Assembly (NCBI GenBank): GCA_011045995.1
Contig: DSBQ01000022.1
Location: forward strand, 1 to 44,917
From: Methanoculleus sp.
GTDB lineage: Archaea > Halobacteriota > Methanomicrobia > Methanomicrobiales > Methanomicrobiaceae
Direction: 5' to 3'
Length of the DNA stretch: 44,917 nt
Under the pieces are notes generated by a model. It did not search any database and was not told where the DNA came from. It saw nothing but the letters and a program-made list of their open reading frames with translations. The first letter of the stretch is position 1. Every line of letters begins with the position of its first letter. Below, one piece after another: positions 15,252 through 19,469 of this stretch. Both the position numbers and the translations under genes were made by a program.

Positions 15252-15419
15252 TCAGGCGGCCCCGTCAGCGGACTTGACCGCCGCAATCAGGGCCTCGAGC
15301 CTGACCGGGTCGGAGACGTCGTTTTTGGTGAAGACAACCTTTTCTGCGACCCACACCTCCACCGCCGCGTTCACCGACGAGGCCGGATACGAGGCGCACA
15401 CCGCTATAGCCGCTGGGTT
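15252..15419 (-). pseudogene. Degenerate, internally deleted copy of the flavodoxin gene
   Basis: This minus-strand frame has no start codon and ends at TGA (15252-15254). Its tail VVFTKNDVSDPVRLEALIAA matches FVFTKNDVSDPARIGALIEA of the intact flavodoxin gene at 17334-17831, and the stretch AVCASYPASSVNAAVE matches PVWASHPPPPVNGAVQ. Between these two blocks about 35 codons present in the intact gene are missing, and everything upstream is gone. DNA similarity is clear up to the stop codon (both TCAGGCG on the plus strand). It begins directly after the stop codon of the TPR protein gene, in the same frame. Confidence 0.8.
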
Positions 15420-16051
15420 TTAGGGGGTGTCGGCCGGACGAAGCCTTTTCAGTGCAACTCCTTTGCTGTACCATGCATGGGCGTGTTCGGGATCGATCGA
15501 AAGCGCCTTGTTGTACGCCTCAAGCGCCTCCTCATATCTCTCCATTCCCATCTGGGCATCTCCTTTCATGTTCCAGGCGTGTGCGTCTCCTGAATCCAGG
15601 GCGAGAGCGAGGTCGCCTGCATCAAGTGCCTCCCCAAAGCGTCCCAGAATATTGAGGGAGGTGCCCAGATTGACCCACGAAGGCAGAGCATCGGGGTCGC
15701 ATTCGAGCGACCGGCAGTAGGCCCGGACGGCCTCTTCGTGTTTCTGCAGTTTACTCAGGGCCCATCCCTTGTGATACCAGATGGAGGCACCGTGGTATAA
15801 GTGCAGGAGAGCGACGGTGAGACAGGCATGGCTCCGCTCAACAAATCCACGGGAAAACAGCAAAGCCCGCCCGGCATGGAACGCACTATTATAGGCGGCG
15901 ATATGGGCCATCTCGTATTCTCTGATGACAAGGGTGTTCTCTGCAGAGGCCGCGAACCGCCGTGCCAGCGCAATTGATGCAGGAACCCGTGCCGGGGCGT
16001 CCAGGTTCCCTTTTGAATGAGCCCTTTTCTCCTGCAATCATCCCATTTCAT
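15420..16051 (-). CDS. HEPN-TPR fusion protein, partner of MNT gene; -1 frameshift near its start
   Basis: Probable toxin or effector of an MNT/HEPN pair. The natural start is ATG 16049-16051, which overlaps the stop of the MNT gene (TGATG) and gives MKWDDCRRKGLIQKG, a start typical of HEPN proteins beside MNT genes. This frame must shift -1 at AAAGGGA (16007-16013) to join NLDAPARVPASIALARRF, after which about 195 codons are open. The HEPN helices follow (EYEMAHIAAYNSAFHAGRAL, FSRGFVERSHACL); R-x6-H is present but may not be the RNase motif. The HEPN fold stops after about 80 residues and runs into three TPR units (WYHKGWALSKLQKHEEAV, WVNLGTSLNILGRF, AWNMKGDAQMGMERYEEAL) plus a partial fourth. 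Without a shift, translation could start only at TTG 16037. Either a broken gene, a sequence error or recoding. Confidence 0.7.
16007..16013 (-). promoter_or_regulatory. Slippery heptamer A-AAG-GGA at the HEPN frame junction
   Basis: Read in the frame set by the ATG at 16051, the sequence is CAA AAG GGA; slipping back one base gives AAA GGG and continues exactly into the HEPN frame. This fits the X XXY YYZ pattern of -1 frameshift sites. Recoding is inferred; a lost base in the A4G3 run explains it equally well. Confidence 0.35.
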
Positions 16052-16842
16052 CAGAGGCACACACCAGCAAGCAGGATATGGTCCCGTATGACACTTCGTG
16101 CAAAGGCGTCCCCCGATTCCTTCATCGGTTCCCAGCGATAGTAGGGGATGGCGGTCACCTGAAGTTCAAAACCGAGCTCCTCTTCAATGGCCTGCACCGC
16201 ATCATAGCGCACACACGATTCCTCGCCAATCACAAGAAGATCGATGTCGCTATTTTCATCATACGTCCCGCGTGCTCCGCTCCCATAGAGAGCCAATGAG
16301 GTGCACCCCGGCGCAATGCCTCGTGAAGATGGATACTGAAGCGGGCATTCTGATACACGGGATACTTCGATCATGCTGGTTTCGGTTGTTGTATCAGTTC
16401 CACCACTCTCACCGCGCTCCCGCACCCGGCCGTCATCTGCAAACTGGCCGGATGCAGCTTTCCTGCCCCCTACATCCACATTGGGGCCACCAGACCTCCA
16501 TCCGGCCCTCCCGCTCCGGTCCTTTTCGCCATTCCATTCGGTATCACTGCCGTCACCAATGCCCTCTGCCACTCCCGCCTCCAGCAGGCGGGCAACAAGG
16601 AAGGTCCGTTTCATCTCCCTGACGAGCACATATTCGTTATTGAGGGAGATGAGGTGGGCGGTGCCAGCCTTTTGTTTCCGGACAATACCGTCCCGCAGGA
16701 GAATATCTGTATACTGCTTCGCACTGGCAGGCGAAACGCCAACCTCACGGGCCATTTCATTGATTCCCGGTGCAGACGAGGGATGCGACAACAACCAGGC
16801 AAGCACCCTGTTGCCGACAAAGATGCTGAATTCAGGTATCAT
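16051..16842 (-). CDS. wHTH-nucleotidyltransferase (MNT) protein with large linker insert
   Basis: A 263-residue protein. Residues 1-75 form a winged helix (INEMAREVGVSPASAKQYTD, then DGIVRKQKAGTAHLISLNNE). Residues 181-204 carry the minimal nucleotidyltransferase motif, GSGARGTYDENSDIDLLV, with the G-S pair at 187-188 and D199/D201 as metal ligands. Between them, about residues 93-165 are hydrophilic and low complexity, rich in Gly, Asp, Arg and Thr, a stretch usually absent. In type VII toxin-antitoxin systems the MNT protein AMPylates its HEPN partner; the HEPN gene overlaps the end of this gene, which fits. The wHTH suggests it also represses its own promoter, where a palindrome lies over the start codon. 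Confidence 0.85.
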   Translation of the reverse strand: MIPEFSIFVGNRVLAWLLSHPSSAPGINEMAREVGVSPASAKQYTDILLRDGIVRKQKAGTAHLISLNNEYVLVREMKRTFLVARLLEAGVAEGIGDGSDTEWNGEKDRSGRAGWRSGGPNVDVGGRKAASGQFADDGRVRERGESGGTDTTTETSMIEVSRVSECPLQYPSSRGIAPGCTSLALYGSGARGTYDENSDIDLLVIGEESCVRYDAVQAIEEELGFELQVTAIPYYRWEPMKESGDAFARSVIRDHILLAGVCL

Positions 16843-17333: not shown

Positions 17334-17831
17334 TCAGGCGTCACCGTCGGTGTTGCCGTCGGCGGATTTGACCGCCTCAATCAGGGCACCGATACGGGCC
17401 GGGTCGGATACGTCGTTTTTCGTGAAGACGAACTCCCTGGTGACCCGCACCTCCTTTGCGGCGAGCGCCTCTGCGATGAGGGGGAGGGTTCCCCGCGGCT
17501 GGCCGACGCAGGTCGCAAAGAGGACGACGGTCTTCCCGCTGCACCCGGCAAGCGCCTGCACGGCGCCATTCACCGGCGGGGGCGGATGCGAGGCCCAGAC
17601 GGGCGTCCCGAGAACAATCACGTCCGCCCCCGTGACATCGATCGTCGCTGGCTCTATCACGTCGCAACTCCCCTTCTTGGCACGCCTGGCCCCGGACAGG
17701 AACACCGACAGGTGCGAATACGGCGCAACGGGCGTCACCTCGACGAGCTTGCCGCCGCAGGCGGCATGGACCTTCTCCGCCACCCCGCGGGTGACGCCGG
17801 AGTAGGAATAGTAGATGGTGGTTATGGTCAT
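17334..17831 (-). CDS. Flavodoxin family protein
   Basis: A 165-residue flavodoxin. The FMN-phosphate loop is YYSYSGVTRGVAEKV at the N-terminus; GTPVWASHPPPPVNGAV supplies the second flavin loop and LFATCVGQPRGTL the third. It probably carries electrons or reduces a small substrate in the cytoplasm. I start at ATG 17831, since GAGGAT lies about nine bases before it, rather than ATG 17846. It stands alone. A decayed partial copy lies at 15252-15419 on the same strand, with the MNT/HEPN pair between them. Confidence 0.88.
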   Translation of the reverse strand: MTITTIYYSYSGVTRGVAEKVHAACGGKLVEVTPVAPYSHLSVFLSGARRAKKGSCDVIEPATIDVTGADVIVLGTPVWASHPPPPVNGAVQALAGCSGKTVVLFATCVGQPRGTLPLIAEALAAKEVRVTREFVFTKNDVSDPARIGALIEAVKSADGNTDGDA

Positions 17832-18112
17832 GGTTATTATCCTCATTCATTTCCATCGAAGAAGCACGAAGCACCTAACGGATGCATCATTAGATGAGAT
17901 TAACTGAAATCCATATATGAGGGAGTGCTACCACGAGGATTCTATGAAGGTGATATATGTTGCATGGTAAAAGAATCATTCGTGGAAAATTACACAGATT
18001 CCTTGAGAATTAAATATATTTCATAATATAAATGTCGGGTTGACTAAAATATAAAATTAAATGTTCAAAATTATTGATAAATTGCTAGATCCTCAACATA
18101 CTGAAATGATTG
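17832..18112. other. AT-rich spacer
   Basis: About 280 bases, strongly AT-rich between 17950 and 18112 compared with the GC-rich genes around it. No gene or array is visible. The base composition suggests acquired DNA or a long promoter region. Confidence 0.4.
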
Positions 18113-18180
18113 AATCTTCATAGGGCGGACGAGTTCGTCCCGTTCCATTACACTGGGCCGCTTCATCGCCGTCTCAATCC
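18113..18180 (-). pseudogene. Degenerate, internally deleted copy of the atpD 3' region
   Basis: Two blocks match the intact atpD gene in the same orientation: 18113-18149 matches 18861-18897 (about 33 of 37 bases) and 18155-18180 matches 19002-19027 (about 22 of 26). The roughly 104 bases that lie between these blocks in atpD are missing. The remnant lies about 115 bases before hicB, so hicBA sits between this copy and the true atpD gene. Confidence 0.75.
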
Positions 18181-18262
18181 CTTCAATCCAGAATCATATC
18201 TATCCAACCCGCCCCCCCAACACTCCTCGAACCTCTCGATCCAGACCACAATTTCCTGAAAG

Positions 18263-18270
18263 CTTATAAT
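18263..18270 (+). promoter_or_regulatory. TATA box of hicBA
   Basis: CTTATAAT ends 26 bases before the hicB ATG, implying a leaderless transcript. Confidence 0.5.
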
Positions 18271-18296
18271 CTGCCAGTTCAGATACAACAATACCA

Positions 18297-18515
18297 ATGA
18301 CTCAGTTCAGTGTCATCATTGAAAAGGATGACGAGGGCTATGTCGCATACGTGCCTGTTTTGCAGGGATGCTACGCCCAGGGAGACACCTACGAGGAGGC
18401 CCTCGCCAATATTACCGATGCAATCCGGCTCCACCTTGAAGATATCGCAGAATCCGGCCAGGAAATACCAAAAACCCACCAGATCAGTCTCACGACAGTA
18501 GAGATCTCCGGATAA
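18297..18515 (+). CDS. hicB: HicB-family antitoxin
   Basis: A 72-residue protein with the HicB core: FSVIIEKDDEGYVAYVPVLQ, GCYAQGDTYEEALANITDAI and a C-terminal LTTVEIS strand, a partial RNase H fold that sequesters the HicA toxin. It has no separate DNA-binding domain, as in short HicB forms. hicA follows after four bases. The order antitoxin-toxin is the common one in archaea and the reverse of E. coli hicAB. Confidence 0.93.
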   Translation: MTQFSVIIEKDDEGYVAYVPVLQGCYAQGDTYEEALANITDAIRLHLEDIAESGQEIPKTHQISLTTVEISG

Positions 18516-18519
18516 AACC

Positions 18520-18732
18520 ATGAGCAGGACTCCCCGTGTCGATGCAAGGAAAGTAGCCAGAGTACTTGAGAAGCATGGCTATGCATTAGTACGGCAGAGC
18601 GGGAGTCACAGAATGTACAAAAACGCGGACGGGATCCGCGTTACCCTTCCTATTCATTCGGGCAGGATCATTCACCCGAAGATACTTCTTAAAATTGCTG
18701 AAGATGCCGGCATACCTCTCGATGAATTCTGA
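18520..18732 (+). CDS. hicA: HicA-family mRNA interferase toxin
   Basis: A 70-residue double-stranded-RNA-binding-like fold protein. ARKVARVLEKHGYALVRQSG leads to the catalytic His 30 in GSHRMYKN; TLPIHSGRIIHPKILLKIA is the second half of the fold. HicA enzymes cleave mRNA when free of HicB. All expected motifs are present, so it looks intact. It is convergent with the ATP synthase operon, ending about 107 bases from atpD. Confidence 0.93.
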   Translation: MSRTPRVDARKVARVLEKHGYALVRQSGSHRMYKNADGIRVTLPIHSGRIIHPKILLKIAEDAGIPLDEF

Positions 18733-18828
18733 TCGGATTCACACGAATACCTGTAAAACGAATCCTAATGTTAGGAAATATCATCGAAATTTCTTCAGCC
18801 AATGCGCTAAAAGAAAACTTCAGATAAC

Positions 18829-18835
18829 AAAAAAA
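18829..18835 (-). terminator. Oligo-T terminator of the ATP synthase operon
   Basis: On the minus strand, just after the atpD stop codon, TTTCTTTTTTTG contains a T7 run, a typical archaeal termination signal. Confidence 0.5.
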
Positions 18836-18839
18836 GAAA

Positions 18840-19469
18840 TCAGGCCTTACTCTTCGCCTTAATCTTTTTAAGGCGAACGAGTTCGTCCCGTTCCATTTCG
18901 TCAAGCCGCATTTTGATGAAGGCGGAGGCCTCCTTGAGTTCGGGGATGACCTTGAACTCCAGGGCGTTGACACGGCGCTTCGTGCTCTCGATTTCATTCA
19001 GGAGCCGTTTCATCGTCGTCTCAATCTCTGCAGCCCGGATGATCTCGTCGACCAGTTCTTCAAAGGCGGACGCGGTCTCATCGATGACCGCGGAGGTGCC
19101 GAGCACGCCATAGCCACGCTCGGCAAGGTCCTTCTTCACTTTCGTCGCCTCGATCTCGGGGACCACAACACCCATGATGTTCTTCTTCTTCAGGGTGAGT
19201 TCGGGCTTCTCGCGGACCGACATCGCGGCCGCCTTCACGCCGATGGAACCCTCCACCGTGTTGGCAATGGCGATTATCCCCTGGGCACGGGCGTATTTCT
19301 CGCCAATTGCATCCCGGCTGCCCTTTGCCTCCTCGAGCACCTTAAAGAACTCAAGGATCAGCCCGTCGCGCTTCATCTTCAGAATGTTGTAGCCGCGCTC
19401 GGAGAGCTTGATCTTCTTTTTCAGGTTGATCAGTTCAGAGCGGGTCGGCTTCACATCTTTAAGCGCCAT
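18840..19469 (-). CDS. atpD: A-type ATP synthase subunit D
   Basis: A 209-residue central-stalk protein that forms the rotor axle inside the A3B3 head. It starts ALKDVKPTRSELINLKKKIK and is almost all helix, with long coiled coils at residues about 8-75 and 125-200 (TTMKRLLNEIESTKRRVNAL), the family layout. It is the last gene of the operon, six bases after atpB; no atpG follows. A decayed partial copy of its 3' half lies beyond hicBA. Confidence 0.97.
   Translation of the reverse strand: MALKDVKPTRSELINLKKKIKLSERGYNILKMKRDGLILEFFKVLEEAKGSRDAIGEKYARAQGIIAIANTVEGSIGVKAAAMSVREKPELTLKKKNIMGVVVPEIEATKVKKDLAERGYGVLGTSAVIDETASAFEELVDEIIRAAEIETTMKRLLNEIESTKRRVNALEFKVIPELKEASAFIKMRLDEMERDELVRLKKIKAKSKA

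Follow-up and report, generated by a model that had tools for sequence, protein, structure and literature searches.

A hicBA pair between atpD and a decayed copy of its 3' end, and recurrence of this layout at other genes in Methanomicrobiaceae

The stretch of DNA analyzed here (the window; 44,917 nt of a Methanoculleus sp. contig) carries an intact gene for subunit D of the A-type ATP synthase, atpD (18840–19469, minus strand; PF01813, E = 6e-60), an open reading frame that comes after atpA and atpB. It is faced by two plus-strand genes, hicB for an antitoxin (18297–18515; PF15919, E = 4e-14) and hicA for a toxin (18520–18732; PF07927, E = 2e-16, a family match in the whole-genome search). 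Judged by these matches, the adjacent HicB and HicA family proteins of 18297–18732 form a genuine hicBA pair, with predicted antitoxin and toxin activity.

On the far side of hicB, two short blocks resemble atpD, with strand and order as in the gene. The first (18113–18149, minus strand) matches 18861–18897 without gaps (89% over 37 nt), the second (18157–18192, minus strand) matches 19004–19039 (81% over 36 nt), and about 104 nt of atpD are absent between them. The part of atpD that is duplicated across hicBA spans 18861–19039 on the minus strand, or nt 431–609 of the gene, and the two flanking copies would delimit an inserted unit of about 636 bp (18193–18828), consisting of hicBA with short flanks and without a recombinase gene. 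The blocks are short, as chance similarity or misread coding repeats would allow. However, the best local alignment of the region upstream of hicB with atpD scored 54, whereas 500 dinucleotide-preserving shuffles reached at most 37 (mean 20), and this test, a nearly complete copy in a sister genome and recurrence in 10 genomes (see below) refute that reading, which we give practically no weight. The two blocks are the decayed remains of a copy, on the same strand, of the last third of atpD. The original prediction, that two blocks match atpD in the same orientation with about 104 bases missing and that hicBA lies between gene and copy, was thus borne out.

The genome of the window is one of the Methanomicrobiaceae, from a genus near Methanogenium, and sister genomes showed what the locus looks like before and after such an insertion. 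The counterpart of the window remnant in genome G002 is near full length (atpD nt ~441–621, the stop codon and following bases, at 82%); for that reason we regard the window fragment as an internally deleted remnant, in agreement with its earlier description as a degenerate, internally deleted copy. It is too decayed for its own junctions to be visible. In G001, which has no hicBA behind atpD and represents the empty-site state for the window insertion, a lipoprotein gene directly follows atpD, and one fragment comes after it. The order in G002 is atpD, hicB, fragment A, the lipoprotein gene of G001 and fragment B. Fragment A and its post-stop bases align straight into the atpD–lipoprotein junction of G001, and therefore hicBA entered behind atpD and left the old gene end on the far side. 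By sequence similarity the window insertion is common to G002 (hicB and the stretch upstream of it match at ~89% over 341 nt); the window has since lost the lipoprotein gene. G002 has lost the toxin and kept the antitoxin hicB: its hicA is short by ~150 nt and no HicA match was found there. A second comparison again leads to insertion behind atpD, since atpD of G007 is followed by a Schlafen/AlbA_2 gene and two fragments in G012 run on into that same gene. G012 and G014, from different genera, have one cargo unit with an identical junction in common.

Next to the atpD remnant lies a flavodoxin-family gene (17334–17846, minus strand; PF12682), followed on the same strand by an MNT nucleotidyltransferase gene (16051–16842; PF01909, E = 2e-8), a HEPN-TPR gene (15420–16037; PF05168 weak, TPR strong) and a flavodoxin 3'-end fragment (15262–15423). 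The original prediction took this MNT/HEPN pair, between flavodoxin and a partial copy, for a second case of the same kind. The fragment is real (78% over 108 nt), but its origin is less clear, because in the sister genome G001 two intact flavodoxin genes flank the MNT gene, the second with 63% protein identity to the window flavodoxin. The window fragment may be a decayed paralogue and not an insertion scar, and we dropped MNT/HEPN as a second clean insertion case. As to the pair itself, its HEPN domain is fused to TPR repeats directly after the MNT gene, and the MNT gene carries a long low-complexity insert.

To see how far the atpD arrangement extends, the AtpD protein was searched in 60 relatives and then in 28 Methanomicrobiaceae genomes. 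Ten of these 28 carry, downstream of atpD, between one and three copies of its 3' end, separated by small cargo genes. Besides the window, truncated same-strand copies were found in G001, G002, G011, G012, G014, G017, G021, G023 and G027, located downstream of the gene at distances between a few hundred bases and ~8 kb, and G005 has an atpD fragment on a separate small contig. The five other families sampled from the order showed no atpD fragments, and for atpB, the gene before atpD, there were paralogues but no fragments of this kind. Every mapped copy is a 3' end or a remnant of one, and most reach the stop codon, with 5' breakpoints that vary from nt 154 to ~504. The cargo includes HicB/HicA, RelB, a ParE-type toxin, lipoproteins, an ArsR-like regulator, a Schlafen/AlbA_2 protein and others. 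Because lipoprotein, Schlafen/AlbA_2 and ArsR-like genes are among it, the process at atpD is not specific to toxin–antitoxin genes; atpD is a broader insertion hotspot, not one for hicBA alone. In G023 (Methanogenium marinum), genes for HicB, a RelE-like toxin and a SIR2-like protein of 1080 aa lie in the atpD 3'-end array; the hotspot also collects likely defence genes.

The fragments share with one another derived mutations that are absent from functional atpD genes, and so they either trade sequence among themselves or derive one from another. The atpD locus is thus also shaped by cassette exchange, or by fragments copying or converting each other. Fragments A and B of G002 and fragment 2 of G017, from two genera, read CCCCGCG where CTTGACG stood. 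The partner stretch in G002 became CGCGGGG, which creates a complementary pair of 7 nt that the functional gene does not have; this may reflect exchange between fragments, or chance.

A direct-repeat scan of 400 kb each of G017 and G012 led to a different host gene, fae-hps, where, in both G012 and G007, a different hicBA separates the gene from a copy of its 3' end. In all, hicBA followed by a copy of the host's own 3' end was found at fae-hps (repeat 232–236 nt, insert 637 nt), an OGG-like glycosylase gene (373 and 670 nt), a gene for a UPF0173 metallo-beta-lactamase-fold protein (155 and 700 nt), the gene for DNA topoisomerase VI subunit A, top6A (55 and 539 nt), the histidinol dehydrogenase gene hisD (251–299 and 648 nt) and a gene for a 208-aa protein in G012. 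The layout is at its clearest as host gene, hicBA and a 5'-truncated copy of the end of the host gene. Across these hosts the repeats range from 55 to 606 nt and the inserts from 539 to 807 nt, the repeat ends 1–75 nt past the host stop codon, and the junctions between repeat and insert are sharp at several host genes. The original expectation that hicBA would be found beside partial neighbour copies elsewhere therefore holds, at unrelated host genes in relatives.

Empty sites, with the target present once, were identified for two of these insertions, at the glycosylase gene in G012 and at top6A in G009, and an insert-free tandem copy was found at neither. In G007 the two copies of the glycosylase repeat are identical at 358 of the 373 sites, whereas the empty allele of G012 matches them at only 320 and 317. 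Since the copies are closest to each other, the template of the duplication was the resident gene or one very closely related to it. At top6A, too, the two repeat copies apparently resemble each other more than they resemble the empty allele. Here the stop codon of top6A and the start codon of the following gene overlap, and after the duplication each of the two genes has a junction copy to itself.

The inserts (0.5–0.8 kb) contain hicBA only, with no recombinase or integrase gene. Fixed element ends were not demonstrated, as the relatives of the UPF0173 hicBA share only a stretch that starts ~50 nt upstream and ends near the hicA stop. Microhomology at the junctions, assessed by eye, was seen only at top6A (~4 nt, TGAT), and blunt joining, likewise judged by eye, is likely. 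We rejected a DNA transposon or insertion sequence as the carrier, given that the hicBA inserts have no convincing terminal inverted repeats and that the duplications are 55–606 nt long, not short and fixed.

Two further repeat-rich regions came to our attention. G012 C1:643449-665103, a second insertion hotspot, contains two fae-hps copies, several 3'-end fragments and two hicB copies, together with a transposase-like pair and repeated secreted-protein-like genes. G017 C1:152000-177000 contains an array of a repeated 196-aa membrane-protein gene and 250–490 nt elements that starts beside a tRNA-Gly gene.

Whether hicBA loci are enriched for this layout was assessed at 52 hicA loci from five genomes, with random points from sampled stretches of two genomes as controls. 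A flanking direct repeat within 3.5 kb was present at 20 of the 52 loci and at 59 of 480 random points. Tight sandwiches, defined as a flanking direct repeat with a gap of at most 1.3 kb, were found at 13 of the 52 hicA loci and, among 800 random points, at 32 (p = 6e-7, Fisher test), at least three of those 32 matches being hicBA sandwiches themselves. When only the genomes that supplied random points were considered, the count was 7 of 25 hicA loci (p = 8e-5). About half of the 13 tight sandwiches have no clean mapping to a host gene 3' end. A second genome set gave 1 positive among 23 hicA loci, and the phenomenon is therefore concentrated in some lineages. Tight sandwiches at MNT (1/30) and ParE (2/17) loci showed no significant excess over random points, and on these counts we dropped a general rule for toxin–antitoxin modules. 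The originally proposed common route of insertion, with a truncated copy of the target left behind, is thus upheld in part: several hosts, sharp junctions, empty sites and the 13 of 52 loci speak for it at hicBA, but MNT/HEPN stands at the random level.

We think it probable that hicBA enters as a bare 0.5–0.8 kb unit, by repair-type recombination, with a long target duplication of variable length that leaves neither neighbour damaged. In the window, a bare unit of ~0.64 kb would have been inserted immediately after the stop codon of atpD, with duplication of at least the final ~180 nt of the gene, so that the insert came to have one copy on each side. The copy upstream of it would have completed the working atpD, and the downstream copy would have stayed joined to the sequence that formerly followed atpD and then decayed. 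Repeat and insert presumably arose in one event. A captured hicBA fragment may have been joined in by end joining or by template switching, without a transposase. The survivors would be those insertions whose duplication spans a gene end, because the tail of the upstream gene and the start of the downstream gene then stay intact, as is visible at top6A. Selection may have favored both the keeping of an addictive module and insertions that leave genes intact. Once formed, the direct repeats could convert one another or permit precise excision.

The main rival is import after DNA uptake, since Methanoculleus thermophilus, a member of the Methanomicrobiaceae, has been reported to be naturally transformable. 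In such homology-facilitated illegitimate recombination, an imported gene 3' end with hicBA would join homologously within the gene and illegitimately further upstream in the recipient gene; the end of the full copy would then be foreign and the fragment would be the old native end. One homologous and one illegitimate junction could yield the observed geometry (PMC3240628), and the variable 5' breakpoints and the end of copy homology at or just past the host stop are as this scheme would have it. Fragment p1 of G011 does group with G017/G027 and not with its own atpD, but there it is the fragment, not the gene, that looks foreign. At the glycosylase gene, the one case with good data, the repeat copies look like self-duplicates: each is most similar to the other, and the empty allele is as distant from the one as from the other. 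A foreign donor was also not favored by the trees, which show no conflict between the functional atpD 3' end and atpB plus the 5' part of atpD (AU p = 0.31, a test of low power). Synonymous divergence by quarters of the gene gave a hint of a more similar last atpD quarter in genus g5, but with a milder dip in some control genera we gave it no weight. Overall we hold import to be unlikely.

Still less probable, in our judgement, are separate events, in which part of the gene end would first have been duplicated in tandem and hicBA gained later in the neutral spacer between the copies. The many atpD fragments with mixed cargo and shared derived mutations would suit such a history, but the sharp repeat–insert junctions at several genes, the relatives that lack both repeat and insert, and the two empty sites with a single target copy argue against it. 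The geometry of a restored gene end and a displaced 3' fragment is also what a site-specific integrative element would leave if it used gene 3' ends as attachment sites, as occurs with tRNA genes. Against this, the tyrosine integrases that a PF00589 search of 12 genomes found all lie away from the examined atpD genes, the inserts are below 1 kb and hold hicBA only, the hosts are many and unrelated, and variable breakpoints and repeat lengths show that the crossover is not constant. The integrative-element reading is largely refuted, and we consider it very improbable.

Entry of a bare hicBA unit with target duplication has its closest parallel in the restriction-modification genes of Helicobacter pylori, for which insertion with long variable target duplications, on the order of 100 bp, has been described (Nobusato et al., 2000; reviewed in PMC3874152 and PMC3031569). 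Both involve a small addictive unit without its own transposase and long, variable direct target duplications, and both leave a similar gap as to mechanism; an empty-site allele and variable duplication are found at hicBA as well. In contrast to that system, the cargo here is not restriction-modification genes but hicBA in methanogenic archaea, and the duplications of 55–606 nt lie at gene 3' ends. A 2020 review (PMC7167474) calls the mechanisms of movement and integration of type II toxin–antitoxin modules unelucidated. It describes chromosomal intercistronic insertions in E. coli (mazEF in relA-mazG, yafNO in dinB-yafP, ccd in folA-apaH), which resemble ours as bare pairs between conserved genes that are empty in other strains; its passages on these insertions mention no target duplication, whereas here the event has left a truncated host copy as its mark. 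In the literature searched, which covered few subscription papers, target duplications at hicBA came up in no report, so that priority is not certain.

Altogether, these data confirm and extend the initial observation and support the insertion reading for hicBA, not for MNT/HEPN. A wider generalization, to which we give somewhat less than an even chance, is that hicBA pairs in Methanomicrobiaceae spread as bare units of ~0.5–0.8 kb by a recombination route that duplicates 55–600 nt of target; they could then enter even overlapping operon genes undamaged, and truncated host copies would be datable scars of acquisition. The long target duplications at hicBA are a readable signature of the insertion event, a visible scar of module entry, and they connect toxin–antitoxin modules with the way in which restriction-modification genes have been proposed to insert. 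Target duplication explains how a module lands in a dense operon with neither neighbour broken, and toxin–antitoxin movement becomes testable by empty-site comparison.
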